This document shows positions 3,562 to 38,969 of a stretch of 64,000 nt of DNA, in pieces. The position numbers and the translations under genes were made by a program. The DNA comes from Amycolatopsis bartoniae (GTDB lineage: Bacteria > Actinomycetota > Actinomycetes > Mycobacteriales > Pseudonocardiaceae): positions 625,501-689,500 of the forward strand of contig NZ_JACHWH010000003.1 in NCBI RefSeq assembly GCF_014191255.1, written 5' to 3'. Under the pieces are notes generated by a model. That model saw only the letters and a program-made list of their open reading frames with translations. It did no database searches and had not been told where the DNA came from. Positions within the stretch are counted from its first letter, which is position 1; each line of letters begins with the position of its first letter.

Positions 3562-3945
3562 TTGTCCGCTCCAGAAGAGTTGCGCTACACCGAGGAACAC
3601 GAGTGGGTGGCCACCGGCTCGGCGGGCTCGGTCCGCGTCGGCATCACCGAGTACGCGCAGGACCAGCTCGGCGACGTGGTGTTCGTCGAGCTGCCCGAGG
3701 TGGGCAAGCAGGTCAGCGCGGGCGACACCTTCGGCGAGGTCGAGTCCACCAAGAGCGTCTCGGAGCTGTACGCCCCGCTCGACGGCGAGGTCTCGGCGGT
3801 CAACAGCGCGGTCGTCGACTCACCCGAACTGATCAACAGCGACCCCTACGGCGAGGGCTGGCTCATCGAGCTGAAGGTGACCGACCCGGCCACCGTCGAA
3901 GGGCTGCTCGACTCCGACGCCTACCAGGCGCTGACCGCGGGCTGA
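3562..3945 (+). CDS. gcvH: Glycine cleavage system H protein
   Basis: The product is the 127-residue lipoyl carrier that shuttles the aminomethyl group between the P, T and L proteins of glycine cleavage. The TTG at 3562 is chosen because GAAAGGGG sits 7 bases upstream and the product then starts at the usual place (LSAPEELRYTEEHEW). The lipoyl-lysine is K64 in VESTKSV. The length is normal for the family. It is directly followed by garA, as in mycobacteria. No gcvP or gcvT is present in the window, although an orphan glycine riboswitch lies 3.1 kb downstream, so the partner enzymes must be elsewhere. Confidence 0.96.
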   Translation: MSAPEELRYTEEHEWVATGSAGSVRVGITEYAQDQLGDVVFVELPEVGKQVSAGDTFGEVESTKSVSELYAPLDGEVSAVNSAVVDSPELINSDPYGEGWLIELKVTDPATVEGLLDSDAYQALTAG

Positions 3946-4052
3946 ACCGGCGCGGTCTTGGGGGAGCCCCGGCGGCTGCGACCGGCCGGGCACGGTACGT
4001 TGACAACACACGTTCTTGGTAGACGAACACTTCAGTGGTGAGGAGAGCTCAG

Positions 4053-4517
4053 GTGAGCACGAACGACGGACCCGGCGTTCCCCCGGAGCAGTCTCCGGAG
4101 CGGACCTCGGTCTTCCGGGCCGACTTCCTGGCGGACGCGGAGGGCCACGAGCCACCGGCGCCCGAGCCTTCGGTCGCGGGCGTCGACGCGCTGCCGGCGG
4201 GCTCGGCACTGCTGGTCGTCAAGCGGGGCCCCAACGCGGGCTCGCGGTTCCTGCTGGACCGCGACACCACCAGCGCCGGACGGCACCCGGACAGCGACAT
4301 CTTCCTCGACGACGTCACGGTCTCCCGGCGGCACGCGGAGTTCCGGCGTGAGGGCGGCGAGTTCGTGGTGATCGACGTGGGCAGCCTCAACGGCACCTAC
4401 GTCAACCGCGAGCCGGTCGACCAGGCCGTCCTCGCCGGCGGCGACGAGGTGCAGATCGGCAAGTTCCGCCTGGTCTTCCTGACCGGCCCGGGGCACGGGG
4501 GCCAGGGGGCACGGTGA
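4053..4517 (+). CDS. garA: FHA-domain metabolic regulator GarA/OdhI
   Basis: GarA (OdhI in corynebacteria) binds and controls 2-oxoglutarate dehydrogenase, glutamate dehydrogenase and glutamate synthase according to its phosphorylation by Ser/Thr kinases. The 154-residue protein has a flexible N terminus with the phosphorylation motif ERTSVF at residues 16-21. A C-terminal FHA domain (about 50-150) shows GRHPDSDI, SRRHAEF and NGTYVN. Mycobacterial GarA has ETTSVF, in which the first Thr is the PknG site and the second the PknB site. Here the first is Arg and only T18 remains. GTG start with GAGGAGAG upstream. It overlaps ftsR by 4 bases. Confidence 0.93.
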   Translation: MSTNDGPGVPPEQSPERTSVFRADFLADAEGHEPPAPEPSVAGVDALPAGSALLVVKRGPNAGSRFLLDRDTTSAGRHPDSDIFLDDVTVSRRHAEFRREGGEFVVIDVGSLNGTYVNREPVDQAVLAGGDEVQIGKFRLVFLTGPGHGGQGAR

Positions 4518-5260
4518 CGGCTGCCGGGCGGCCACAGCGCGAGGGGCTGAGCATCGGCGCCGTGCTGGCGCAGCTGCGCGCGGACTTCCCCGACGTCACC
4601 ATCTCCAAGATCCGGTTCCTCGAGTCCGAGGGGCTGGTGCAGCCCGGGCGCACGCCGTCGGGCTACCGGCAGTTCGCCCCGGCGGACGTCGAGCGTCTGC
4701 GGTTCGTGCTGTCCGCCCAGCGGGACCACTACCTGCCGCTGAAGGTCATCAAGGAGCAGCTCGACGCCGCCGACCGCGGTGCCGCCGCGCCCGCGGCGGC
4801 GGCCGTCCGGCTGCCCCGCAAGCTCGTGTCGGTGCCGTCGGTCGGCGGTGACGGGCTGCCCACGGCCGAGGACTTCGAGCCCGGGCGCGAAGTCCGGTTC
4901 ACGCAGGAGGAGCTGCTCGCCGAGGCGGGCATCGACGCGGCCACGCTGGCCGAGCTGGAGCAGTACGGGCTCGTCCGGCCGGGCGCCGCGGGGTTCTACG
5001 ACCCGGACGCGGTGCTCGTGGCGCGCACGGTCCGCGCGATGACGGAGTTCGGCATCGAGCCGCGGCACCTGCGCGCGTTCCGGGCCTCGGCCGACCGCGA
5101 GGTCGGGCTGCTCGAACAGATCGTCACGCCCGTCTACCGGCACCGCGACGCCGACGCGAAGGCGCGCGGGGACGAGATGGTGCGCGAGCTGGCGGCGCTG
5201 TCGGTCACCCTGCACACGTTGCTGGTCAAGGCGGGCATCCGCGGCGTGACCGGCGGCTGA
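4514..5260 (+). CDS. ftsR: MerR-family transcriptional regulator FtsR
   Basis: This 248-residue DNA-binding protein is homologous to M. tuberculosis Rv1828 and C. glutamicum FtsR, an activator of the cell-division gene ftsZ. The N-terminal winged helix shows LSIGAVLAQL, ISKIRFLESEGL and RTPSGYRQF (residues about 10-60). A second helical region with FTQEELLAEAG and LEQYGLVRPG follows, as in that family. A Pro/Ala linker separates the two. It is translationally coupled to garA (GTGA overlap) in an order conserved across actinobacteria. No effector-binding cysteines are present. The target ftsZ is not in this window. Confidence 0.9.
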   Translation: MTAAGRPQREGLSIGAVLAQLRADFPDVTISKIRFLESEGLVQPGRTPSGYRQFAPADVERLRFVLSAQRDHYLPLKVIKEQLDAADRGAAAPAAAAVRLPRKLVSVPSVGGDGLPTAEDFEPGREVRFTQEELLAEAGIDAATLAELEQYGLVRPGAAGFYDPDAVLVARTVRAMTEFGIEPRHLRAFRASADREVGLLEQIVTPVYRHRDADAKARGDEMVRELAALSVTLHTLLVKAGIRGVTGG

Positions 5261-18982: not shown

Positions 18983-19733
18983 GCACCTGGCGTACGTCGG
19001 GCCGCCCGTCGCGCCCGCGGAGCTGGTGTTCGGCGCGCCGCATTCGCTGCTGCACCAGTCGTACGCGCCGGACGACATGCGGGGCGGCGGCACGGTGAAC
19101 GCCGACGGCTTCGGCCTGGCGTGGTACGCCGATGGCGCGCCCGTGCGGTACCGGCGGGCGAGCCCGATCTGGGCCGACCACGACGCGCCCGTGCTCGCCG
19201 CGTCGGTGCGCTCGGGCGCGTTCGTGGCCGCGGTGCGCAACGGCACCGCCGGCATGCCGGCGGCCGAAAGCGCGTGCGCGCCGTTCGTCGATGGGCCCTG
19301 GGCGTTCAGCCACAACGGCCGCGTTCCCGGCTGGCCCGGCTCCCTCGCCGGGCTCGCGGGGAAGCTGCCGGTCACCGAGCTGCTCACCCTCGAAGCGCCG
19401 ACGGACTCGGCCGTGCTGTGGGCGTTGCTGCGGGAGCGGCTGCGGGCCGGGGAGCACCCGGCGGAGGCCGTCTTCGACCTCGTCCGCCGCACCGAGCAGG
19501 CCGCGCCCGGCTCGCGGCTCAACCTGCTGCTGACCGACGGCGAAACCCTGGTGGCCACCGCGTGGACCCATTCGCTGTCCTACCGCGTGCGCGGCGACGC
19601 GGTGGTGGTCGCCTCCGAACCCACCGATCCGGGGCCGGGCTGGAGCCCGGTGCCCGAAGGCCACGCCGTCGTCGCGCGCCGCGGCTCGGCCGACCTCGTA
19701 CCCCTCGACGCTGATCGGAGTACCCGTCCATGA
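18975..19733 (+). CDS. egtC: Ergothioneine biosynthesis amidohydrolase EgtC
   Basis: EgtC removes the gamma-glutamyl group from the EgtB product. It is a 252-residue class-II glutamine-amidotransferase-like Ntn hydrolase. The GTG at 18975 puts Cys at position 2 (VCRHLAYVG), which becomes the N-terminal catalytic nucleophile after removal of the initiator Met; any earlier start would hide it. Other features are NADGFGLAWYADG and PWAFSHNGRVPGWP, the substrate loop region. It overlaps egtB by 8 bases and egtD by 4. The start is therefore set both by chemistry and by operon structure. Confidence 0.95.
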   Translation: MCRHLAYVGPPVAPAELVFGAPHSLLHQSYAPDDMRGGGTVNADGFGLAWYADGAPVRYRRASPIWADHDAPVLAASVRSGAFVAAVRNGTAGMPAAESACAPFVDGPWAFSHNGRVPGWPGSLAGLAGKLPVTELLTLEAPTDSAVLWALLRERLRAGEHPAEAVFDLVRRTEQAAPGSRLNLLLTDGETLVATAWTHSLSYRVRGDAVVVASEPTDPGPGWSPVPEGHAVVARRGSADLVPLDADRSTRP

Positions 19734-20710
19734 GCGAACCCGAGCTCGAAGTGCACCGGCACCCCGCCGACCTCACCGAGGCGCTGCGCACCGACGTCCG
19801 GTCCGGCTTCTCGGCGGCGCAGAAGTGGTTGCCGCCCAAGTGGTTCTACGACGCGCGCGGCAGCGAGCTGTTCGAGGAGATCACCGCGCTGCCGGAGTAC
19901 TACCCGACCCGCGCCGAGCGCGAGGTGCTGGCGCGGGAGGCGGGCGAGATCGCCCGCGTCACCGGGGCCCGCACGCTCGTCGAGCTGGGCTCGGGGTCGA
20001 GCGAGAAGACCCGCCTGCTGCTCGACGGCCTGCGCGGGCACGGCACGCTGGAGACGTTCGTGCCGCAGGACGTCTCCGCGTCGGCGCTGGCCGAGGCGGT
20101 CGCGGCGATCCGGGCCGGCTACCCGGGGCTGGCGGTGCGCGGGGTGGTCGGTGACTTCACCGAGGACCTCGGGCTGCTGCCCGGGGAGCCGCCGCGCGTG
20201 GTGGCGTTCCTCGGCGGGACGATCGGCAACTTCTCCCCGGCCGAGCGCGGCAAGTTCCTCCGCTCGGTGCGCGCCGTGCTGGCCGAGGGGGAGTGGCTGC
20301 TGCTGGGCACCGACCTGGTCAAGGATCCGGGGACGCTGGTCCGCGCGTACGACGACGCGGCGGGCGTGACCGCGGAGTTCAACCGCAACATGCTCCGCGT
20401 GGTCAACGACCTGCTCGGCGCGGACTTCGACCCGGCCCGCTTCGCGCACGAGGCGTACTGGGACCCGGAGCACGAGTGGATCGAGATGCGGTTGCGGGCC
20501 ACCGAGGAGCAGACCGTGCGCATCCCGGGCGCGGGGCTGACGGTGTCCTTCGCCGAGGGCGAGTACATCCGCACGGAGATCTCCGCGAAGTTCCGGGCCG
20601 CCGGCGTGGCGGCCGAGCTGGCGGAGAGCGGGTTCGCCGTGGAGCGCTGGTGGACCGACGCCGAGCGCCGGTTCGGGGTGTCCCTGTCCAGGGCGGTTCG
20701 GGAGGAATGA
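19730..20710 (+). CDS. egtD: Histidine N-alpha-methyltransferase EgtD
   Basis: EgtD uses three SAM to trimethylate histidine to hercynine, the first intermediate of ergothioneine. The 326-residue protein shows the family signature KWFYDARGSELFEEITALPE (residues about 36-55), the SAM site ELGSGSSEKTRLLL, FLGGTIGNFSPAER and the C-terminal EYIRTEISAKF, SLSRAV. The ATG at 19730 overlaps the egtC stop. This is the last gene of the operon; egtE, the PLP-dependent C-S lyase for the final step, is not present here, so it is encoded elsewhere or replaced. Confidence 0.96.
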   Translation: MSEPELEVHRHPADLTEALRTDVRSGFSAAQKWLPPKWFYDARGSELFEEITALPEYYPTRAEREVLAREAGEIARVTGARTLVELGSGSSEKTRLLLDGLRGHGTLETFVPQDVSASALAEAVAAIRAGYPGLAVRGVVGDFTEDLGLLPGEPPRVVAFLGGTIGNFSPAERGKFLRSVRAVLAEGEWLLLGTDLVKDPGTLVRAYDDAAGVTAEFNRNMLRVVNDLLGADFDPARFAHEAYWDPEHEWIEMRLRATEEQTVRIPGAGLTVSFAEGEYIRTEISAKFRAAGVAAELAESGFAVERWWTDAERRFGVSLSRAVREE

Positions 20711-27120: not shown

Positions 27121-28494
27121 TCAGTCCGCGAACGACGCGCGGAGCACTCCGTCGGGGTCGGTGGACTCGCTGAAGTCCTCCCAGTCCATGTTGGCGATCG
27201 AGAGCTGGGTCTCGACGTCCACCAGCGCGTGCGGGGTCGCGCGGAAGGTCCGTGGCCGGTCGTGGTCCGGGCCGACCTCGATGACGAGCACGGGGTGCTC
27301 AGGCGAGGCGAGGGTCACCGCGTCCACGACGAAGACGAGGTCGTGGTCGGTGCGCGACAGCAGCGCGGCGAGGTCTCCGGCGGTCCAGCCGTCGAACTCG
27401 GGCCGGGCGACGAGGGTGGCGCCGAGGACGACCTCGCCGTCCCAGTACCCCTGGGGCGCCGTGATGTCGCTCCAGGCCGCTTCCCACGCCTGCGGATCGG
27501 AGAAGTCGGTGCGCACGATCGGCGTGGACGCGGCGCTGCGCAACGCCTCGAAGGCGGCGGATGTCCACACGGGAGGGTCGGAGTCCGCCGGCGCGGCGGA
27601 CGGTGGAGTCCGCAGTCCCCGGTAGGCGACGGGGAAGTGGCCCGCGCGCTGGCGGTGGCCGGTGAAGCCGGCGGTGCCGGCGAGGAACCGGACGGCCGCC
27701 AGCTGCAGGTGCGGGGACCCGTTGTTGCCGGTGATGTCGAGGCGGTAGTGGTCGCAGGCGGCGGGGTCGGCGATCCGGTACGTCCTGGACTGGTGCCGGC
27801 CGGGGAAGGACTGGCCGGTGCGGGAGTCCAGCGCGTGCCACCGGTGCCCGTCCGCCGAACCACGCAGCGTCCACGCCGCGGGGTCACGGTCGGGAGCGTC
27901 GTTGCCGGAGGTGAGGACGTACCGCTCCACCACGACCGGCCGCGGCAGCCGGAACTCCAGCGCCGCGCGAGGGTACGGGGCGAACCACTTGCTGTGCGTC
28001 CCGTCGACGAGGTTCGCCGCGACCTCGCCCATCTCGGGGTGGTCGGCGGTCGCCCACACCGAGGTCACCAGGTCCGTGACGTCCGCGCTGCCGGACGGGC
28101 TTTCCGAGCGCAGGGCCAGCGAGCAGGCGCCGCCGGTGCCGTCGCGCCAGGCCACCCACCGCAGCGGTTCCCCGGACCCGTCGTCGACCAGCAAGCGCAG
28201 GCGGCCCGGGGTCTCCTCGAACTCCGTGTCGAACTCGTACCCGCCGCGGGGCTCGTCCTCGCCGCTGAGCTCGCCGCGGACCTCCGCCACCGCACCGGTG
28301 GGCAGGGAGCGGTGGCCGTAACAGGTGGCCAGATCGGGCGAAAAGCCGAGCGAGGTCTGGGCGCCGTCGGCCGTGCCCCACGACAGGTGCTCCGGCGCCA
28401 CGCGCGCACCATCGTCCAAGTGTACCAGCAACGGATGCCCCGGCCGCCACCCGGTCTCGTCGCCCGTACGCCAGAACATGCGGAAGGTCAGCAC
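27121..28494 (-). CDS. Discoidin-like (F5/8 type C) domain protein with DUF6924-like C terminus
   Basis: The protein has 457 residues and no signal peptide. GTG at 28494 follows a -10 box (TAGCCT) by 8 bases, favouring a leaderless start; ATG at 28479 is an alternative. Residues about 1-140 (VHLDDGARVAPEHLSWG, YGHRSLPTGAVAEVRGE) are unassigned. Residues about 150-280 look like a discoidin/CBM32 sandwich (LVDGTHSKWFAPYPRAALEF, YVLTSGNDAPDRDPAAWTLR, YRLDITGNNGSPHLQLA). The last 130 residues (TPIVRTDFSDPQAWEAAW ... LSIANMDWEDFSESTDPDG) match the actinobacterial DUF6924 pattern as I recall it. A cytoplasmic carbohydrate-binding or immunity-like role is open. It is divergent from the PKS operon. 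Confidence 0.65.
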   Translation of the reverse strand: MLTFRMFWRTGDETGWRPGHPLLVHLDDGARVAPEHLSWGTADGAQTSLGFSPDLATCYGHRSLPTGAVAEVRGELSGEDEPRGGYEFDTEFEETPGRLRLLVDDGSGEPLRWVAWRDGTGGACSLALRSESPSGSADVTDLVTSVWATADHPEMGEVAANLVDGTHSKWFAPYPRAALEFRLPRPVVVERYVLTSGNDAPDRDPAAWTLRGSADGHRWHALDSRTGQSFPGRHQSRTYRIADPAACDHYRLDITGNNGSPHLQLAAVRFLAGTAGFTGHRQRAGHFPVAYRGLRTPPSAAPADSDPPVWTSAAFEALRSAASTPIVRTDFSDPQAWEAAWSDITAPQGYWDGEVVLGATLVARPEFDGWTAGDLAALLSRTDHDLVFVVDAVTLASPEHPVLVIEVGPDHDRPRTFRATPHALVDVETQLSIANMDWEDFSESTDPDGVLRASFAD

Positions 28495-28502
28495 AGGATG
28501 CG

Positions 28503-28508
28503 AGGCTA
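28503..28508 (-). promoter_or_regulatory. -10 box for the discoidin-like gene
   Basis: Read on the minus strand this is TAGCCT, 8 bases before the GTG at 28494, consistent with a leaderless transcript. Confidence 0.45.
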
Positions 28509-28700
28509 GTGCCGGTGGCGTCCGATCGGGCAGAAGTTGCCCGGGCACGCCAGAAAATCTGCCTCGGATTCCGGTTCCCGGTGACTTGGGCGGCCTCGTG
28601 GCACGACCAGTCCACATCGGACCCACGGATGCGGTCTGTCTGAACCACACCCCGCGATGGAATTTCGGGCATGGCTTTCCGGTCGAGCGCACCAACCCCA

Positions 28701-28729
28701 TTGACCGGCTCACGGGCCCAACCCAGGCT
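28701..28729 (+). promoter_or_regulatory. Promoter of the PKS operon
   Basis: TTGACC (28701-28706) and CAGGCT (28724-28729) are 17 bases apart. Transcription would begin near 28736, inside the inverted repeat at 28734-28755. AGGAG at 28765-28769 is the likely ribosome site, somewhat far (12 bases) from the ATG at 28782. Confidence 0.5.
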
Positions 28730-28733
28730 GGAG

Positions 28734-28755
28734 AGGTCCGGACCACACCGGACCT
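28734..28755. promoter_or_regulatory. Inverted repeat AGGTCCGG-N6-CCGGACCT at the PKS start site
   Basis: Perfect 8-bp arms cover the predicted transcription start of the PKS operon, the place where a repressor would act. No regulator gene is adjacent. As RNA it could also form a hairpin at the very 5' end of the message. Confidence 0.55.
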
Positions 28756-28781
28756 GCACTGTCTAGGAGCTGTAGCCCCCC

Positions 28782-31700
28782 ATGTCATCTTCCGGGCTTT
28801 CGCACGCTGTCTCCCGTTCGACCGGTTCCCCCGAGGCCGAACCCGTCGCGATCGTCGGCATCGGGTGCCGGTACCCCGGCGGCGTGGCGGACCTGCGCGG
28901 GTTCTGGGAGATGCTCGAAGCGGGCACCGACGCGATCACCGACATCCCCGAAGACCGCTGGCGCACCACCGACTACTTCGACGCCGACAAGGCGACTCCC
29001 GGCCGGATGTTCGTGCGGCAGGGCGGATTCCTGCACACGCCGGTGGACGAGTTCGACGCCGGGTTCTTCGGCATGTCGCCGCGCGAGGCCGCTGCGCTCG
29101 ACCCGCAGCAGCGGCTGCTGCTGGAGGTCACCTGGGAATCGCTGGAGGACGCGGGAATTCCGCCGAGCTCGACCGCGTCCGCGAACGTCGGCGTCTTCGT
29201 CGGCGGCTTCACGTTCGACGCGGCGACCCTGCAGCTGTCCGAGTCGAACCAGCACCTGGTCAGCTCGGCCACGCCGACGGGCGTGAGCATGACGATGCTG
29301 GCGGCGCGGTTGTCCTACGCGTTCGACTGGCGTGGCCCGGCGTTCACCGTGGACACCGCGTGCTCGTCCTCTTTGGTGGCACTGCACCAGGCGTGCACCG
29401 CCCTCGCGCTCGGCGACTGCGACCTCGCGGTGGCCGGCGGCGTGAACGTGATGGTGAACCCGGTCACCAGTATCCTGATGTCCAAGGGGCAGTTCCTCTC
29501 GCCCGACGCCCGCTGCAAGTCGTTCGACCACCGCGCCAACGGTTACGCGCGCGGCGAAGGCGCCGGAATCCTCGTGCTGAAGCCACTTTCGGCCGCGCTG
29601 CGGGACGGCGACCGCATCCACTCCGTCATCCGGGGCACCGCGGTGAACCAGGACGGGCGCACGCCCGGCATCACCGTGCCGAGGGTGGAGTCGCAGCGGA
29701 CGCTGATCGAGCGCGCCTGCCAGGTCGGTGGCGTGGAACCGGCTTCGGTCGGCTACTTCGAGGCACACGGAACCGGGACCGCGGCGGGAGATCCGGTCGA
29801 GGCGACCGCGATCGGCGAGGTGCTCGGCGACTCGGGCGACACCCACTGGATGGGGTCGGTCAAGTCCAACTTCGGGCACACCGAGGCCGCGGCCGGGGTA
29901 GCCGGCGTGATCAAGGCGACGATGTGCCTGCAGCGCGGGGAGATCCCGCCGAACCTGCACTTCGAGAAGCCCAACCCGCGGATTCCCTTCGACCGCCTGC
30001 CCATCCGCGTGCCCACCGAGATGGTTCCGTTCCCGGAGCGGAACGAGCCGCGGCGGGCGGGCGTCAACTCCTTCGGTTTCGGCGGCACCAACGCGCACGC
30101 CATCCTCGAACAGGCCCCGGCCGCCGAGCCCGCGGCCGACGAGGTGGACGACGGCCGTCCGGTGCTCCTGCCGCTGTCGGCGCGGAGCCAGGACGCGTTG
30201 CAGTCGCTTGTGGACAGTTACGCGACTCTGCTGGAGAGCCCGGACGCCCCGGCGCTGCGCAGGATCGCCCGTGCTGCCTCGCGGCAGCGCGACCACCATC
30301 CGATGAGGACGTTCGTCGTCGCCGGGAACAACGAGGAGGCCGCGGAGAAGCTGCGGAACCTCACCCTCGCCCCGGCCCGGACCACACCGCCGCCGGTCGC
30401 GTTCGTCTACACCGGAATGGGTCCCCAGTGGTGGGGCATGGGCCGCGAGCTGCTGGAGACCGAGCCGCGCTTCGCGGAGTTCGTCGCCGCGTGCGACGAG
30501 GTGCTCGCGCGGCACGGACTGTCCATTGCGGACGAACTGCGTCGCGACGAGAACGAGTCGCGGCTGACGAGCACGCTGTACGCGCAGCTCGCGAACTTCG
30601 TCGTGCAGGCCGGGCTCACCGCGCTGTGGCGGGACTGGGGAATCGAACCCGCGGTGATCGTGGGGCACAGCGTGGGCGAGGTCGCCGCGTTCCACGCGGC
30701 CGGCGTGTACTCGCTCGAAGACGCGCTCACCGTGAGCTTCCACCGGGCGAGCCTGCAGGCCCGCACCGCCGGGCGCGGCGGGATGGCGGCGGTCGACCTG
30801 CCCGCGGCCGAGGTGACGCCCCACCTCGTCGACGGCGTGACCGTCGCCGCGGTCAACAGCACGTACGCGACCACCATCGCCGGTGACTCCGACGGGCTGG
30901 CGGTGGTGAGCGAGGCGCTGACCGCGGCGGGCGCGTCGGTGAAGCAGCTGCGCGTCGAGGTGGCCTACCACAGCCCGCAGATGGACGAGATCCACGAGCC
31001 GCTGCTCGCCGCGCTGGCGGGGATCCGCCCGCGCCGCGCGAAGGTCCCGCTGGTCTCGACGGTGACCGGGGACTTCGTCGACGGCTCCGAGCTCGACGCG
31101 GAGTACTGGTGGGGCAACGTGCGGCAGCCGGTGCGGTTCGCCGACGCGTTCCACAAGGTGCTCACCCGCAACGTCGGCGCCGTGCTGGAGGTGGGGCCGC
31201 ACCCCGTGCTGGCCTCCGCCATCGACGAGGCGCTGGCCGGCCGCCCGGCCGCCGTTGCCCGGTTCACCTCGCTGCGCCGCGACCGGCCGCAGCGCGAGCA
31301 GCTCGCGGAAAGCCTGGGCGGGCTGTACGAGGCGGGCGCCGACCCGGCGTGGGACCGCGTGCACCCCGGTCCGCGCGAACACCTCGACCTGCCCCACTAC
31401 CCGTGGCACCGCGAACGCCACTGGATCGAGTCGGCATCCTCCCGCCAGCGGCGGCTGGGGCACGACGGCCTGCGGCTGGGCGGCCGGGCCGTCTCGTCCG
31501 TCGCCCCGATCCGGGACGTCGAGCTGTCCGCGTCCGCGTTCCCGTACCTCGGCGACCACAAGGTCGGCGAGTCCGTGGTCTTCCCCGGCTCCGGCTACCT
31601 CGAAGCCGCGCTCGCGGCCTTCCCGGAGGACGAGCCGTGCGTCCTCGCCGACGTCGTCTTCCACCGGCCGCTCGCGCTCCCGCCGTCGTCGGTCACGACG

Positions 31701-34700
31701 CTGCGCATCGGGCACGACCCGGCGCGGCAGCTGGTCACCCTGCACAGCCGGGTCCAGCCCGACGACACCACCTGGACGCTGCACGCCGAACTCCGCCGCG
31801 CCCACGTCGTCAAGGCTCGCGCCGAGGCGCCCCGGACCGAGACCCTCGACGAGCTCACCGAAGGGCTGCCGGAGCTCGGCCACGACGACGTGTACGAGCG
31901 CCTGGGCGGCACCGGGCTGAACTACGGGCCCGCGTTCCGCGTCGTGCGGCGGCTGTGGTGGCGGACGGAGACACGCGAGGTCTTCGGCGAGCTGCGGCTC
32001 GACACCGTCGAACAGGACGGCCACCGGCTGCACCCGGTGCTCCTCGACGGCGCGCTGCAGGCCGCCATCACGGGCGCGCACCTGCTCGGCGGCGAGGTGC
32101 AGCCCGGCACCTACGTGCCCGCCCGCATCGACGCGCTCCGGTTCTTCCGGTCCCCGGGCACCCGGCTGTGGATCCACGGCCGGGGCCGGGAAGCCACCGG
32201 GCCGGGCACCATCGAATGCGACCTGACCCTCGTCACCGACGACGGCGAGGTGGTCGCGCGGGTCGAGGGCCTGCGGGCCAGCAAGCTCGCCGAGGCCGAG
32301 GAGCAGCGGGCGAACCTGCGCTACGAGCACGTCTGGCAGCAGGAACCACTGGACCGGGTCGCCGGGGCCGAAGGCCGCTGGATCGTCGTCGGCGCCTCGG
32401 CGACGGCGGACGACCTGGCACGCGGACTGTCCGAACTGGACGGTGAGGTCGTCCGCACCGCCACCGCCGACGACCGCTGGCTCGACCAGGTCCTCGCCGC
32501 CGTGGCCGGCGCGGAGAACTGCCGCGGCGTGGTCTACGTCGAGGGTGCGCAGCACGAGGGTGCGCCGTCGTGCAGCCCGGTCGCGGCGCCGCTGCGGCTG
32601 GTCCAGGAGCTGCCCGCCGACGCCGGCCGCCTGTTCCTCGTCACCGCGGGCGCGCAGAGCGTCTCCGCCGACGACCCGACCACCGCACCTGCGGCCGCGT
32701 CGCTGTGGGGCTTCGGCCGCGTCGTCACCGCCGAACGGCCCGAGCTGCACTGCCGGCTGATCGACGTCAGCCCGGACGACCCGGCGGCCGGCACCCAGGA
32801 CAAGGTTCTCGACGCCCTGCTCACCGAGCTCGTCCAGGACGGCGCCGACGAGGTCGCGCTGCGCACCGACGGCCGGTACGTCCGGCGGTTCGCGCACGCC
32901 GGGGAGGGTTCCGACCTCGACCACGTCCGCACCCGGACCGACCTCACGCCGGTGCGCCTGCGGCAGGCCGGGGGAGCGGGGTCCGAGCTCGGCTTCGTCG
33001 CGACCACCCGCCGGGAGCCCGGGCCGGGCGAGGTCGAGATCGAGGTCTCGCACGTCGGCGTGAACTTCAAGGATGTGCTCAAGCAGACCGGGTTGATCTC
33101 GCCGCACGCCATCGAAGGCAGCCACTCGGGCGAGACGCTCGGGCTGGAGTGCTCCGGCACCGTCGTCGCCGTCGGTGCGGAGGTCACCGACCTGGCCGTC
33201 GGGGACGAGGTGTTCGCGCACAGCCGGGACCTGTTCGTCTCGCACGTGACGCTGGAAGCGGTCCGTGTGGTGCGCAAGCCGGCGACGCTGTCCGGCGCCG
33301 AGGCCGCGTCGCTGCTGCCCGTGGTCACCGCGCACCTGTCCCTGGTGCGGCTCGCGAACGTCCGTCCCGGCGAGCGCGTGCTGATCCACTCGGCCGCCGG
33401 TGGCGTCGGCCTGGCCGCGGCGCGGATCGCGAAGTGGCTCGGCGCCGAGGTGTTCGTCACCGCGGGCAGCGAGCCGCGGCGGGAGCTCCTGCGCCAGGAG
33501 GGTTTCACCCGCATCGCCGACTCGCGGTCCACGTCGTTCGCCGACGACATCCTGGAGTGGACCGGCGGCGAGGGCGTCGACGTCGTCGTCAACTCCCTGC
33601 CCGCCGACATGATCGACCACAGCCTCCGTGCGATGGCCACGTTCGGGCGGTTCGTCGAGCTGGGCAAGCCCGGTGACGTCGCGGACCACGCGGTCCGGCT
33701 CGCCTCGGCACGCCGGGCGCTGTCGTTCCACTCCTTCGACTACGACCAGATGATGGCGCTGCGGCCCGAAGACGTCCGCGCGAGCATGCGGGCCGTCGCG
33801 CAGCTGCACGAGCAGAACGCGATCGCCCCCCTGCCGTGCCGGGAGTTCCCGGCCGACGAGATCGGCGAAGCGTTCCGCGTGATGGCGCGCCCCGAGCACC
33901 ACGGCAAGATCGTGGTCCGGATGGCGGCCGAACCGGTGCGGGTCCCGGCGGAGTCGCTGCCCGGCTCCCCGGTCCGGCCGGACGTCACATACCTCATCAC
34001 CGGCGGTCTCGGCGGCCTCGGCCGGACGGTCGCGCGCTGGCTGGCCGACAACGGCGCCCGGTACGTGGCGCTCGTCGGCCGCAACGGCGTCACCTCGTCC
34101 GCCGCGGCGCAGGACGTGGCCGAGCTGACCGCGCGCGGGGTGCAGGTGCGGGTCCTCAAGGCCGACGTCAGCGACCGCGAACAGGTCCGCTCGATGCTGG
34201 CGCGGGTGCGTGCCTTCCTGCCGCCGCTGGGCGGGATCGTGCACGGCGCGGCCGACTTCGACGACGCGATCCTCTCCGACATGGACGCGGCCCGGCTCGT
34301 CGGCGCCACCCGGCCGAAGGCGGACGGCGCCTGGTACCTGCACCAGGAGACCCTGGGCGACCAGCTGGACTTCTTCGTGCTGTTCTCCTCGGTCGCGGCG
34401 CAGCTCGGCGCGCTCGGGGCGGGCGCGTACGCGACGGCGAACGAGTTCCTCAACGGACTGGCGCGCTACCGGCGCGGGCAGGGACTTCCCGCCACCGCCA
34501 TCGGCTGGGGGATGATCGACGACGTGGGCGTGGCGGTGAGCCGCGAGGGCTACGTCGGCAACGTCCTGCGCCGCAACGGTCACCTCGGCATGGCGCCCGC
34601 GCGGCTCGTCGCCGAGCTGGGGACGCTGCTGCGCACCCGGCCGGCCGAGGTGTCGGTCGCCGACATCGACTGGCCGCGGTGGACCCGCGCCAACCGGCAG

Positions 34701-35849
34701 CTGGCGGCGCTGCCGAAGTTCCGCGCCGTGGTGCCGGAAGGCGCCGCGGACGGGGAAGGCGACTTCGGCGGCGAGGAAACGGTCGGCAAGCGGCTGCGGG
34801 ACGCGAGCCCGGCCGAGCGCGCCGCGCTGCTGCCCGCCCTGGTGACCCCGCTGCTGCAGCGGACCACCGGGCTGAGCGAACAGCAGCTCGGCGAGCAGCA
34901 GGCGGTGGACGTCGACTCGCTGACCGCGGTCGAGCTGCGCGTCCTGCTCCAGAAGCAGCTCGGCGTCGCCGTGCCGGCGGCGCGGCTGCAGCGCAGCCTG
35001 TCCGTCGACGTGCTCGCCGGCCTGCTCGCCGAGGAGCTCGACCGGGCGCAGCCCGAGGACGGCGAGCCGGCCGACCGCATCACGGTCCACGAGATCACCT
35101 CGGACGACGGCACGGTGGTCTACGGCCACCTCAGCCTCCCGGCGGGTCCCGGACCGCACCCGGCGGTGGTCGTGTGCATGCCGGGCCACGGTGGGGTGCT
35201 CGACTCCAGGGGCGAGTACCGGCACACCAGCGAGCACGCGCCGCTGACCGCGGCCGGTTTCGCGGTCCTGTCGGTCGACCAGCGGGGCGCGCCCGGGCAC
35301 GGGCCCGAGTTCCGCGCGATGGCCCAGATGGGGGGCGGCGACATCGACGACGTGGTGGCGGCCACCCGTTACCTCGCCGGGCTGCCCGACATCGACGAGT
35401 CGCGGATCCACATCCTGGGCACCAGCCGCGGCGCGTACTCCGCGCTCCTGGCGGTGGAACGAGCGCCCGGGCTGTGGCGGCGCGCCGCGTTGCTGATGGG
35501 CGTCTACGACCCGGTCGGGTTCGTGCTGGCCGACCAGGAACGGCCAGACTCGCTGCTGCCGAAGACCGATCCCGCGGAGGTCGAAAGGTACTTCAGCGCA
35601 CCGGAGCGGCGGCCGCTGGCCGCGCTCGGCGACGTCACCACACCCCTGCTCATCGTGCACGGCGACGCCGACCCGGTGATCCCGCCGGCCGAGTCCGAGG
35701 AGCTGGCCGCCCGGATGCGCGAGGAGGGGCTGCCCGCCGAGCTGGTCACCGTGCCGGGCCTGACGCACGACCCCGACCACGAGGACGCGGTGTGGGCCGA
35801 GTTGTGGCCGCGGATCACCGGCTTCCTCCAGGACGGCGGCGCGCGATGA
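28782..35849 (+). CDS. Fully reducing type I PKS with fused alpha/beta hydrolase
   Basis: The product is a 2355-residue single-module synthase. Order: KS (about 20-440; C194 in DTACSSS, H329, H366), AT (about 540-830; S630 in GHSVGE, VAYHS at 728-731), DH (about 895-1175; H926 in DHKVGESVVFP, D1089 in LLDGALQ), a structural half-KR, ER (about 1395-1725; NFKD, HSAAGGVGLA), KR (about 1735-1960; TGGLGGLG, Y1883 in GAYATAN), ACP (about 2005-2085; S2046 in DVDSL). Last comes a dienelactone-hydrolase/prolyl-oligopeptidase-like domain (2095-2355; S2215 in GTSRG, D2297, H2329). All catalytic residues look intact. There is no loading domain and no methyltransferase. The fused hydrolase stands where a thioesterase is usual and probably releases a saturated acyl product. 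ATG overlaps downstream by ATGA. Whether it iterates is inference. Confidence 0.93.
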   Translation: MSSSGLSHAVSRSTGSPEAEPVAIVGIGCRYPGGVADLRGFWEMLEAGTDAITDIPEDRWRTTDYFDADKATPGRMFVRQGGFLHTPVDEFDAGFFGMSPREAAALDPQQRLLLEVTWESLEDAGIPPSSTASANVGVFVGGFTFDAATLQLSESNQHLVSSATPTGVSMTMLAARLSYAFDWRGPAFTVDTACSSSLVALHQACTALALGDCDLAVAGGVNVMVNPVTSILMSKGQFLSPDARCKSFDHRANGYARGEGAGILVLKPLSAALRDGDRIHSVIRGTAVNQDGRTPGITVPRVESQRTLIERACQVGGVEPASVGYFEAHGTGTAAGDPVEATAIGEVLGDSGDTHWMGSVKSNFGHTEAAAGVAGVIKATMCLQRGEIPPNLHFEKPNPRIPFDRLPIRVPTEMVPFPERNEPRRAGVNSFGFGGTNAHAILEQAPAAEPAADEVDDGRPVLLPLSARSQDALQSLVDSYATLLESPDAPALRRIARAASRQRDHHPMRTFVVAGNNEEAAEKLRNLTLAPARTTPPPVAFVYTGMGPQWWGMGRELLETEPRFAEFVAACDEVLARHGLSIADELRRDENESRLTSTLYAQLANFVVQAGLTALWRDWGIEPAVIVGHSVGEVAAFHAAGVYSLEDALTVSFHRASLQARTAGRGGMAAVDLPAAEVTPHLVDGVTVAAVNSTYATTIAGDSDGLAVVSEALTAAGASVKQLRVEVAYHSPQMDEIHEPLLAALAGIRPRRAKVPLVSTVTGDFVDGSELDAEYWWGNVRQPVRFADAFHKVLTRNVGAVLEVGPHPVLASAIDEALAGRPAAVARFTSLRRDRPQREQLAESLGGLYEAGADPAWDRVHPGPREHLDLPHYPWHRERHWIESASSRQRRLGHDGLRLGGRAVSSVAPIRDVELSASAFPYLGDHKVGESVVFPGSGYLEAALAAFPEDEPCVLADVVFHRPLALPPSSVTTLRIGHDPARQLVTLHSRVQPDDTTWTLHAELRRAHVVKARAEAPRTETLDELTEGLPELGHDDVYERLGGTGLNYGPAFRVVRRLWWRTETREVFGELRLDTVEQDGHRLHPVLLDGALQAAITGAHLLGGEVQPGTYVPARIDALRFFRSPGTRLWIHGRGREATGPGTIECDLTLVTDDGEVVARVEGLRASKLAEAEEQRANLRYEHVWQQEPLDRVAGAEGRWIVVGASATADDLARGLSELDGEVVRTATADDRWLDQVLAAVAGAENCRGVVYVEGAQHEGAPSCSPVAAPLRLVQELPADAGRLFLVTAGAQSVSADDPTTAPAAASLWGFGRVVTAERPELHCRLIDVSPDDPAAGTQDKVLDALLTELVQDGADEVALRTDGRYVRRFAHAGEGSDLDHVRTRTDLTPVRLRQAGGAGSELGFVATTRREPGPGEVEIEVSHVGVNFKDVLKQTGLISPHAIEGSHSGETLGLECSGTVVAVGAEVTDLAVGDEVFAHSRDLFVSHVTLEAVRVVRKPATLSGAEAASLLPVVTAHLSLVRLANVRPGERVLIHSAAGGVGLAAARIAKWLGAEVFVTAGSEPRRELLRQEGFTRIADSRSTSFADDILEWTGGEGVDVVVNSLPADMIDHSLRAMATFGRFVELGKPGDVADHAVRLASARRALSFHSFDYDQMMALRPEDVRASMRAVAQLHEQNAIAPLPCREFPADEIGEAFRVMARPEHHGKIVVRMAAEPVRVPAESLPGSPVRPDVTYLITGGLGGLGRTVARWLADNGARYVALVGRNGVTSSAAAQDVAELTARGVQVRVLKADVSDREQVRSMLARVRAFLPPLGGIVHGAADFDDAILSDMDAARLVGATRPKADGAWYLHQETLGDQLDFFVLFSSVAAQLGALGAGAYATANEFLNGLARYRRGQGLPATAIGWGMIDDVGVAVSREGYVGNVLRRNGHLGMAPARLVAELGTLLRTRPAEVSVADIDWPRWTRANRQLAALPKFRAVVPEGAADGEGDFGGEETVGKRLRDASPAERAALLPALVTPLLQRTTGLSEQQLGEQQAVDVDSLTAVELRVLLQKQLGVAVPAARLQRSLSVDVLAGLLAEELDRAQPEDGEPADRITVHEITSDDGTVVYGHLSLPAGPGPHPAVVVCMPGHGGVLDSRGEYRHTSEHAPLTAAGFAVLSVDQRGAPGHGPEFRAMAQMGGGDIDDVVAATRYLAGLPDIDESRIHILGTSRGAYSALLAVERAPGLWRRAALLMGVYDPVGFVLADQERPDSLLPKTDPAEVERYFSAPERRPLAALGDVTTPLLIVHGDADPVIPPAESEELAARMREEGLPAELVTVPGLTHDPDHEDAVWAELWPRITGFLQDGGAR

Positions 35850-36784
35850 GGTACAGCATCTTCCTGCCCACGGGGTTCGCCCAGGAGTTCGCGGGCTTCA
35901 GCGACCCGATGGTGGCGTTCGCCAGGGTCGTGGAGCTCGCGAAGATGGCCGATGACGCCGGCTACCACGCGCTGCTCGCGCCCGACCACCTCACCACCGT
36001 GCGGCCGTCGAACCACCTGGTGTTCGAGGCGTGGACGCTGATCACCGCGCTGGCACGGGAAACCACGAACGTGCGGGTGGGGCACCTGGTCACCGCCAAC
36101 GGCTACCGGAACCCGGCGCTGCAGGCGAAGATGGCGTCCACAGTGGACGTCCTTTCCGGAGGGCGGCTGGAGTTCGGCATCGGCGCGGGCTGGCTGGAGC
36201 CCGACCACGTGCAGTACGGCTACGACTACGGCACCACCGGCGAGCGGCTGCGCAGGCTCGAAGAGGCGCTCCAGGTGATCCGTGCACTGTGGACGGAGCA
36301 GAAAGCCGAGTTCGCCGGGCAGTACTACCGGGTGCAGGGCGCGGTCAACGAGCCGAAGGGCGTGCAGCGCCCGCACATCCCCCTGATGATCGCCGGCTCC
36401 GGCGAGAAGCGGACGCTGCGGCTGGTGGCGCAGTACGGCGACGCCTGCAACATCATGGACTCCGCTGAGGTGGCGAAGCACAAGTTCGCCGTCCTGCGGG
36501 ACCACTGCGAGGACGTCGGCCGCGACTACGGCACCATCAGGCGCACCGTCACGACGCCCTGCATCATCCGGGACACCGACGCCGACGCGCGGGCGCTGAT
36601 CCCGCTGGCGTCGAAGTTCGTGTTCCCCGGCGACGTGGGAGCGTACGGGCTGGTCGGCACCCTGGACACGGTCAAGCGGCGCATCGCGGAGTTCGAGGAG
36701 GCCGGGGTGCAGGAACTGGTCGTCTACTTCGAGGACCCGACCAGCGTGACGCAGGTCGCCGAGTTCGCGCGGCTCTTCGTCTGA
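35846..36784 (+). CDS. LLM-class F420-dependent oxidoreductase
   Basis: This is a 312-residue luciferase-like TIM-barrel enzyme. The ATG at 35846 overlaps the PKS stop. Family marks are the start MRYSIFLPTGF, the second-strand region YHALLAPDHLTTVRP, NGYRNPALQAKMASTVDVLSG, the FGIGAGWLEPDHVQYG glycine loop and VGTLDTVKRRIAEFEEAGVQ at the end. The GRLEFGIGAGW pattern is common in actinobacterial F420-dependent members, though FMN enzymes share it. Its coupling to the PKS points to reduction or oxidation of the polyketide product. It ends 5 bases before the FAD monooxygenase gene. Confidence 0.9.
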   Translation: MRYSIFLPTGFAQEFAGFSDPMVAFARVVELAKMADDAGYHALLAPDHLTTVRPSNHLVFEAWTLITALARETTNVRVGHLVTANGYRNPALQAKMASTVDVLSGGRLEFGIGAGWLEPDHVQYGYDYGTTGERLRRLEEALQVIRALWTEQKAEFAGQYYRVQGAVNEPKGVQRPHIPLMIAGSGEKRTLRLVAQYGDACNIMDSAEVAKHKFAVLRDHCEDVGRDYGTIRRTVTTPCIIRDTDADARALIPLASKFVFPGDVGAYGLVGTLDTVKRRIAEFEEAGVQELVVYFEDPTSVTQVAEFARLFV

Positions 36785-36789
36785 CAGGG

Positions 36790-38037
36790 GTGGGCACGGT
36801 GACCGGACGGGTACTCGTCGTCGGCATGGGAGTCAGCGGGATCGCCACCGCGGCGCGGCTGCGGAAAGCCGGGTGGCAGCCGGTGCTCGTGGAACGGGCG
36901 GCGGCCCGGCGGGACGGGGGCTACTTCATCGTCCTCTTCGGAGCCGGGCAGGCGGCCGCGGCCCGGCTGGGGATGCTGGACGCCCTCCACGACCGCGCCC
37001 CGGCCACGCGGAAGCTCGACGTCGAACGCGACGGCACCAGCCGCCCTGGAATGTCCTTTTCGGACCTTCCCGGCCACCCGTGGACGATGCTGCGCGGGGA
37101 CATCGAGGCGGCCGCGTTCGCCATCCTGCCCGGCGACGTGGAGATCCGGTACTCGACGGTGCCCACCGCGATCGAGCAGGACGCGGACGGCGTGGACGTG
37201 ACGTTGCTCGACACCGCGGCGGGCACGTCGGTGACCGAACGGTTCGACCTCGTCGTCGGCGCGGACGGGCTGCGCTCGACGGTGCGGGAGCTGGTGTTCG
37301 GCCCGCACGAGCGGTACCTGCGGCGGCTGGGCTACATGATCAGCGCGTTCGAGTTCCCCGGCACGCCGGCCGGTCTCGAACCCGGCCAGGCGGTGACCCT
37401 GCTCGAACCGGGCCGCGCGATGTGGGTGTTCGCCTACCGCGACCACGACCCGACGGTCCTGGTGACCTACCGCACCGACGACGTCGACGCGGAGTTCCGC
37501 CGGCCGCCCGCGGAGAGGTTCCGGGCCGTCTTCGGCCCGCAGGCGCTGGGCAGCACCCTGGGTGCGGTGATCGACGCGGCCGAGGACGCCGGGGAGATCC
37601 TGTTCGACTCGGCGGAGCAGGTCCGGATGGACCGCTGGTACTCCGGTCGCGTGGTCCTCATGGGGGACGCCGCCTGGTGCGTGACCCTGTACGCGGGCAT
37701 GGGCGTCTCGTCGGGGCTCGTGGGCGCGGAGCTGCTCGGCACGCTGCTGGAACGCCATCCGGGCGACCTCGGCACGGCGCTGGCGGAGTGGGAACGGGGT
37801 CTGCGGCCGTACCTCGACCACTACGCCGAGGGCGCGGCGGCCGACCGCAGGATCTTCGTGGTGGACAGCGCGCTGGAGATCCGGTTCCGGCGCGCGGTGC
37901 CGTGGCTGCGCCGGTTCCGGCTGGGCAGGCGGCTGGTCGACCGGCTCGTGCGGATCGACGAGATCGCGAAGTACAAGAACGCGGACATCGTGGGCGAGGT
38001 GCTGGGCGAGCCGCTGGAGCAGGCCGCCGCTCTTTAG
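36790..38037 (+). CDS. FAD-dependent monooxygenase (PHBH/UbiH type)
   Basis: This is a 415-residue class A flavoprotein monooxygenase-like protein. The GTG at 36790 starts MGTVTGRVLVVGMGVSGIAT, the dinucleotide-binding GxGxxG segment. Further marks are the FAD/NADPH-linked VVGADGLRSTVREL (about 155-168) and MGDAAWCVTLYAGMGVSSGL (about 290-310), the GD motif for the FAD ribityl chain, followed by a C-terminal helical tail. Such enzymes hydroxylate, epoxidise or halogenate-like modify hydrophobic substrates using NAD(P)H and O2. It is the last gene of the PKS operon and overlaps the 3' end of the convergent APH-family gene by 4 bases. Its role as tailoring enzyme is inferred from position. Confidence 0.9.
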   Translation: MGTVTGRVLVVGMGVSGIATAARLRKAGWQPVLVERAAARRDGGYFIVLFGAGQAAAARLGMLDALHDRAPATRKLDVERDGTSRPGMSFSDLPGHPWTMLRGDIEAAAFAILPGDVEIRYSTVPTAIEQDADGVDVTLLDTAAGTSVTERFDLVVGADGLRSTVRELVFGPHERYLRRLGYMISAFEFPGTPAGLEPGQAVTLLEPGRAMWVFAYRDHDPTVLVTYRTDDVDAEFRRPPAERFRAVFGPQALGSTLGAVIDAAEDAGEILFDSAEQVRMDRWYSGRVVLMGDAAWCVTLYAGMGVSSGLVGAELLGTLLERHPGDLGTALAEWERGLRPYLDHYAEGAAADRRIFVVDSALEIRFRRAVPWLRRFRLGRRLVDRLVRIDEIAKYKNADIVGEVLGEPLEQAAAL

Positions 38038-38969
38038 GCGTTCGCCCGGCGGAGGCGCTCGGCGGCCTGTGCCCGCAGCGCGTCGCCGCACAGCGGGGCG
38101 GCGTCGTGCAGTACCTCCCACCGGGCGTGGTGGGCGGCAGGCCACAGGCTCGCCGCCCACGCCACCTCCCGCTCCTGCGGGGTGAAGGCACGACCCCGGA
38201 AATCCTGGTACGCCACCAGGAACGCCTCGGAGCTCTCGACGGGCGCCAGCGTTGCCGGTGCGGCACCGGCGAAACCCCCGCTCGCCGCTCCGGCCAGCGC
38301 GGCTTCCGGCTGCCACGCCAGGCTGTCCCAGTCGTGCACGGTCCACACCCGCGGCCCGTGCCACCGGAGGTTCTGCGCCTCGAAGTCGCCGTGCCCCAGC
38401 ACGTTCGGCAGGCCGGCGGCCAACAACCGCTTACGCACCCGCTCCGCCGTGGCGACGACGTGCGCGGGCACGGCGCTCTGGTCCCGCTCGTCGAAGGACG
38501 GGATCGACGGCCACACCCCGGGATCCTCGTGGTCCCAGCGGATCCAGCGCGGGTTGGGCAGCGGCGGCGGCACGCGCACGCCGGCGAGGGAGGCCATCAG
38601 CAGGGCGAACACCTCGGCGTACCGCACGGCCACGCCGGGGGAGTCGCCACGCAGGACGTCCCCGCCGGGCCGGAACTCCTCGGCGTGCACGGCCAGCGAC
38701 CCGACGGCGACGGCCGGCGTGAGCGGTCGCGCACAAGGAAACCCGCGCTCGGCGAGCGCCGCCTGCGCCGCGACACAAGCCCCGGCGCGCCCGTCGTCGT
38801 CCCGCGCCTTGACCACGACGTCCGAACGGCCCAGCCGGAGCCCGAACACCTCCGACATCTGGCGTAGCCGGAACACCACCGCGACCGGCTCGCCACCCAG
38901 GTGCTCCCGGCACCAGGGCGCCAGCCAGTCGGGGAGGTGATCCTGCGGCACGGTCACCACCGTAGCCAC
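38034..38969 (-). CDS. Aminoglycoside phosphotransferase (APH)-family kinase
   Basis: This is a 311-residue protein-kinase-like small-molecule phosphotransferase. The catalytic loop is VLGHGDFEAQNLRW (HGD-x4-N) and the metal-binding DFG-equivalent is VHDWDSLAWQPE. The N-terminal lobe has the ATP lysine in DVVVKARDDDG. The substrate is unknown; family members phosphorylate aminoglycosides, macrolides, sugars or choline. It is transcribed toward the PKS operon, so there is no reason to count it as part of that pathway, though self-resistance or tailoring by phosphorylation cannot be excluded. The GTG at 38969 is the first reasonable start. Confidence 0.85.
   Translation of the reverse strand: MATVVTVPQDHLPDWLAPWCREHLGGEPVAVVFRLRQMSEVFGLRLGRSDVVVKARDDDGRAGACVAAQAALAERGFPCARPLTPAVAVGSLAVHAEEFRPGGDVLRGDSPGVAVRYAEVFALLMASLAGVRVPPPLPNPRWIRWDHEDPGVWPSIPSFDERDQSAVPAHVVATAERVRKRLLAAGLPNVLGHGDFEAQNLRWHGPRVWTVHDWDSLAWQPEAALAGAASGGFAGAAPATLAPVESSEAFLVAYQDFRGRAFTPQEREVAWAASLWPAAHHARWEVLHDAAPLCGDALRAQAAERLRRANA

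Follow-up and report, generated by a model that had tools for sequence, protein, structure and literature searches.

How does a polyketide synthase (PKS) that carries a single module release its product, and which enzyme acts on that product afterward? This question is raised by a three-gene unit of 9.3 kb in Amycolatopsis bartoniae, located in a 64,000-nucleotide stretch of contig NZ_JACHWH010000003.1 (the window). The unit opens with a 2355-residue PKS that ends in a fused hydrolase domain (28782..35849, plus strand), followed by genes for an LLM-class oxidoreductase and for a flavin adenine dinucleotide (FAD) monooxygenase. Judging from sequence comparison, the window belongs to a PKS family in which the oxygenase occupying a fixed slot has been exchanged. 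Each component comes from a known family; what is new is that the fused release domain characterizes a whole family and that the slot enzyme is exchanged.

What kind of enzyme terminates the PKS? Pfam, PDB sequence matches, and a structure model with its fold matches all identify the C-terminal domain (residues 2098-2350; 35073..35831, plus strand) as an S9-type hydrolase. The domain scores 92.2 bits against PF00326, the Peptidase_S9 catalytic domain (cut-off, 22.6), with the match at residues 2151-2329. An earlier sequence-only reading of this DNA had named Ser2215, Asp2297, and His2329 as catalytic. These residues, read directly from the translation, are correct, and the alignment revealed the triad in 17/17 loci of the family described below. 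The same reading had likened the domain to dienelactone hydrolase or prolyl oligopeptidase rather than to a thioesterase. The peptidase half of this claim held, whereas dienelactone hydrolase was rejected (PF01738, 19.4 bits; cut-off, 21). The window hydrolase shares the catalytic domain and the Ser-Asp-His order with S9 peptidases such as acylaminoacyl peptidase and prolyl oligopeptidase. Prolyl oligopeptidase proper was nonetheless set aside: the N-terminal beta-propeller is absent, and an ACP and linker precede the hydrolase instead. An ordinary type I PKS thioesterase was likewise rejected, with no Pfam thioesterase among the 22 families matched at E <= 0.001. None of 44 PDB sequence matches to the hydrolase carries a PKS or thioesterase name, nor does any of the best 60 of 135 PDB matches in a further sequence comparison. 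The Pfam search of the C-terminal domain therefore bore out the expectation that no thioesterase would align, although fold matches of the model include DcsB, a PKS-type thioesterase of 17% identity, in a structural comparison that cannot rank release types. Fungal reducing PKSs are reportedly released by separate nonclassical alpha/beta hydrolases (DcsB and LovG). The likeness to DcsB is one of fold; the window hydrolase, in contrast, is fused to a bacterial PKS.

Could this domain do something other than hydrolytic release? S9 relatives cleave amides and esters, as an editing or self-protection domain might, but we regard such a role as improbable: the hydrolase is fused behind the ACP with an intact triad in 17/17 loci, and no other release gene is common to the loci. 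That it forms a lactone on release instead of hydrolyzing the chain seems to us rather unlikely.

We then asked how widely the fusion occurs. Including the window, we found 17 distinct PKS-hydrolase loci in two phyla, 16 actinobacterial and one myxobacterial; the duplicate genomes G015 and G961 were counted once, as L035 and L036. In a hydrolase-domain profile search of the order sample, the PKS-fused hydrolase was present in 4/397 genomes, and 75 other genomes had a match at E <= 1e-25 (top score, 106.5 bits). At E <= 1e-40, the profile matched in 2/19 genomes of the genus sample, 10/297 of the family sample, and 1/394 of the class sample. A scan of named genomes, incomplete since it used two peptide patterns only, yielded eight loci: four from Amycolatopsis and one each from Actinoallomurus spadix, Streptantibioticus ferralitis, Streptomyces fumanus, and Pyxidicoccus caerfyrddinensis. 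Across the family, identity to the window was 42-85% for the whole protein and 51-79% when the hydrolase alone was compared. This full-length alignment with 16 other loci excludes a chance origin of the open reading frame (ORF). Outside the family, the best 10 of 3137 PKS matches in plasmid records stop at or before query residue 2108 and hence lack the hydrolase. The hydrolase was also not found in 26 other PKS loci, among which only those extending beyond the ACP are informative, many being cut by locus ends. The second PKS-hydrolase of genome G104 (L054, about 3900-5200) appears decayed, with a hydrolase match ending at position 163 in a 203-residue frame, and was left out of the count.

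In a KS tree of the 17 family members and 24 other KS domains (24 of the 26 comparison loci; two yielded no KS in the chosen frame), the 16 actinobacterial members clustered with support of 100. The free tree required two label changes, and the family as one clade was not rejected (approximately unbiased [AU] test, P = 0.654). Trees of the PKS core and of the hydrolase were broadly congruent, with weaker support in the latter, a congruence that would fit an old fusion. The myxobacterial member (L042, 3524-10837, P. caerfyrddinensis; 42% identity) has a cytochrome c gene behind it, not an oxygenase. Transposases and a group II intron reverse transcriptase surround L053, and an integrase lies near L066. 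The patchy distribution, the mobile-element neighbors, and the myxobacterial member fit horizontal spread.

Does the same gene always follow the PKS? In the window, the LLM gene (312 residues; 35846..36784, plus strand) begins within the PKS stop codon, the two overlapping as ATGA at 35846..35849 (plus strand), and 5 bases separate the LLM stop from the FAD gene (415 residues; 36790..38037, plus strand), both as the sequence-only reading had described. The ATGA junction, formed by the PKS stop and an in-frame ATG of the gene behind it, is present in 11/17 loci; start codons are inferred, and L039 offers three candidate starts. In five of these 11 coupled loci (the window, L035, L036, L037, and L038) the slot holds an LLM gene, and in the other six (L033, L039, L053, L066, L068, and L070) it holds a type I Baeyer-Villiger monooxygenase (BVMO)-like gene. 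The FxGxxxHxxxW motif, which we take to be the type I BVMO fingerprint, was found in 5/5 aligned slot BVMOs, whose closest PDB chains are steroid and phenylacetone monooxygenase; the sixth (L068) was assigned by tblastn at 70%. Behind the LLM gene, the FAD gene is present in 4/5 LLM loci, and besides the window three Amycolatopsis genomes (L035, L036, and L037) carry the complete trio. The trio that had been singled out as a unit is one variant within a wider, 17-locus family. In Amycolatopsis decaplanina (L038, 3755-10774), the ER motif reads ITFED, compared with NFKD in the other actinobacterial copies.

The core tree unites the LLM loci in a single clade (100/99). A grouping of the BVMO loci on one side of a branch was rejected (AU P = 2.6e-8). 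A single LLM/BVMO change is needed among the 11 coupled loci. BVMO loci branch deeper as well as just outside the LLM clade on this tree, which was rooted by midpoint only, and replacement of a BVMO by an LLM would therefore be the natural direction of the swap.

Several observations weigh against reading these loci as self-contained units with an oxygenase in the slot. Six of the 17 loci lack a coupled oxygenase, with the ATGA overlap in none of them. A cytochrome P450 lies near two (upstream in L034 and downstream in L040), and no oxygenase was seen by crude ORF calls in the other four (L041, L042, L069, and L071). Coupling changes at least three times on the 17-locus tree and a three-state label changes four times, from which coupling appears to have been gained or lost repeatedly. 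L038 has its LLM without an FAD gene within the 20.8 kb examined. The FAD profile (E <= 1e-90) matched in 57/297 family genomes, only three of them with PKS-linked copies, and a more distant relative of the BVMO (599 bits) is present elsewhere in the window's own genome. In the PKS itself, the Pfam PP-binding score of the ACP stands exactly at the cut-off (20.8 of 20.8 bits).

How specific, then, are the partner enzymes to this PKS? Five sampled slot BVMOs scored 953-1046 bits, and the next relative among the 297 family genomes, in G938, scored 728 bits. That BVMO (L083, 8274-17325), which shares 58% identity with its counterpart in the slot of L033, is encoded immediately after a different PKS, one with four FabA-like domains. 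BVMOs in the wider sense are common (174/297 family genomes at E <= 1e-170). By comparison, the LLM profile (E <= 1e-110; 230 genomes) recovered only the window and one relative of 54% identity, which has no PKS of the PKS-hydrolase family within its 19 kb. With its many relatives, the FAD gene was ruled out as a PKS-specific marker. Three other FAD copies, 74-75% identical, lie away from any LLM gene or PKS of the family. Since its relatives are widespread and occur away from these genes, the FAD gene was probably recruited from a stand-alone gene.

Can the PKS make a chain on which such enzymes might act? The ORF starts with ATG and has a third-position GC content of 0.95. Pfam placed KS at residues 20-395 (28839..29966), AT at 541-841 (30402..31304), DH at 913-1175 (31518..32306), ER at 1414-1712 (33021..33917), and KR at 1736-1913 (33987..34520), all on the plus strand. 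The ACP, at residues 2042-2081 (34905..35024, plus strand), was located by a Pfam match at the cut-off and the motif VDVDSLTAVEL. Motifs that we presume to mark the active sites are intact throughout: KS Cys-His-His, AT GHSVGE, DH HxxxGxxxxP and LDGALQ, the ER and KR nucleotide sites, KR Ser-Tyr-Asn, and ACP DSL. The KS Cys and two His are retained in 17/17 family loci, and the AT motif VAYHS is presumably of the malonyl type. One protein thus carries KS, AT, DH, ER, KR, and ACP with their active-site residues, as expected of a single-module reducing type I PKS and in agreement with the intact domain series that had been read from the letters. The whole genome (7.76 Mb, 23 contigs) contains one PS-DH match, within the PKS-hydrolase gene, which would fit iterative use of the module, but a further PKS fragment is present elsewhere in the genome (contig C20).

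On balance, we lean toward a self-contained biosynthetic unit in which the PKS extends the chain, Ser2215 releases it as an acid or lactone, and the cotranslated slot enzyme oxidizes the product. The single module would add and reduce malonyl units on its own ACP, most likely iteratively and probably over several cycles. The chain would then pass from the ACP to Ser2215 of the fused hydrolase and leave it as a free acid or a lactone, and the released product would be oxidized by the enzyme encoded in the slot behind the PKS. The sequence-only reading had proposed an operon that makes, releases, and then oxidizes a reduced acyl product. The operon-like unit, its own nonclassical release domain, and two oxidoreductases support that proposal, but a fully reduced product is doubtful, because the BVMO-type partner of the sister loci needs a ketone as its substrate. 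The chain is probably only partly reduced, with reduction incomplete in at least one cycle.

Which step would the LLM carry out? One possibility, which we hold tentatively, is that the LLM (with or without the FAD enzyme) inserts oxygen in the same Baeyer-Villiger manner as the sister-locus BVMO, acting on a ketone-bearing chain, for example, on a methyl ketone formed after a released beta-keto acid loses CO2. The same slot, the same ATGA junction, the single change on the tree, and the lack of any locus with both slot types agree with this, as do flavin mononucleotide (FMN) monooxygenases among the LLM's relatives in the PDB; the LLM class includes type II BVMOs. The identification as an LLM is supported by Pfam and by NCBIfam, where the protein matches the F420 family TIGR03560 (274 bits; cut-off, 231.4). 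Members of that family are often reductases or dehydrogenases, which argues against oxygen insertion, and the PDB relatives mix FMN-type monooxygenases with F420-type enzymes. The sequence-only reading had called this an F420 enzyme; the family label, above its cut-off, suggests so, and it is on this label that the cofactor assignment depends. CofD occurs twice in the window's genome, as a weak cofactor marker (a control likewise matches in 10/14 genomes). A structure model of the LLM was set aside (predicted local distance difference test score, 38).

Alternatively, the LLM and FAD enzymes may carry out an unrelated redox step, such as F420H2 reduction or hydroxylation, so that the swap altered the product. 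The TIGR03560 label favors this reading, as does the distribution of the FAD relatives, which are widespread alone and, in the three inspected cases, away from an LLM or a PKS of the family. The conserved position and cotranslation suggest a common substrate instead, and we consider an unrelated step quite possible but short of probable. The FAD enzyme itself is a PF01494 monooxygenase by Pfam and PDB sequence matches, the closest PDB sequences being tetracycline destructases and 6-hydroxynicotinate 3-monooxygenase. We regard as doubtful the further proposal that, in the window's clade, the LLM and its FAD partner came to perform, at the fixed ATGA slot, the Baeyer-Villiger step formerly done by a type I BVMO.

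Published systems offer partial parallels. In the available excerpts on rishirilide, the LLM RslO1 works together with an FAD enzyme in a single polyketide pathway of an actinobacterium (PMC8093152), and the FAD enzyme RslO9, long considered a BVMO, performs a Hooker-type rearrangement (PMC12903851). The case of RslO9 counts against shared Baeyer-Villiger chemistry at the slot, and labels of this kind need assays. Rishirilide also differs in its aromatic type II PKS and in the pairing of RslO1 with the flavin reductase RslO2; no flavin reductase is adjacent in the window. Bacterial monomodular type I PKSs, with one module per protein as in the window, are described as abundant and partly without characterized members, and the excerpted account of them does not mention a hydrolase domain (PMC10308959). 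Among full-length solved structures, the closest is that of mycocerosic acid synthase (9d2z; PKS residues 19-1919), which has the same KS-AT-DH-ER-KR-ACP order. The window PKS nevertheless fails the NF041183 equivalog of the Pks2/mycocerosic acid synthase group (1119 bits; cut-off, 2400), and its hydrolase extension falls outside that match. Among the open-licence papers listed, a weak negative, we found no described pathway or product for the PKS-hydrolase gene set, in keeping with the earlier failure to recognize one; no paper on DcsB turned up among them either.

The genes flanking the trio do not look like cluster members. An ORF with an OAA-family lectin domain, a weak F5/8 type C match, and DUF6924 (27121-28788, minus strand) lies head to head with the PKS and shares 7 bases with its start. 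An APH-family phosphotransferase gene (38034-38969, minus strand) converges on the FAD gene with a 4-base overlap. Further flanking genes encode a sigma factor, a YCII protein, aconitase, and a MerR regulator. A histidine-specific methyltransferase (19730-20710, plus strand; 384 bits) is presumably of the ergothioneine type. In Amycolatopsis oliviviridis (L037, 2075-16922), genes for a major facilitator superfamily transporter, PKS, LLM, FAD enzyme, glycosyltransferase, aminotransferase, and a 371-residue protein stand in a row; the last has no Pfam match and has a relative near the PKS of L033. Such neighbors would be consistent with a secondary metabolite that is decorated and secreted.

What do these loci mean for the biology of the family? 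The 17 loci in two phyla constitute a PKS family with no product found in print, small enough to be expressed as a whole. Related PKSs with a BVMO or an LLM at the same position provide a natural experiment for direct exchange and comparison of the two. If release by Ser2215 holds true, a peptidase-type domain would free a bacterial polyketide, and if the LLM did take over the BVMO step, the window enzyme would count as a BVMO, type II-like or F420-linked, with a polyketide as its substrate.
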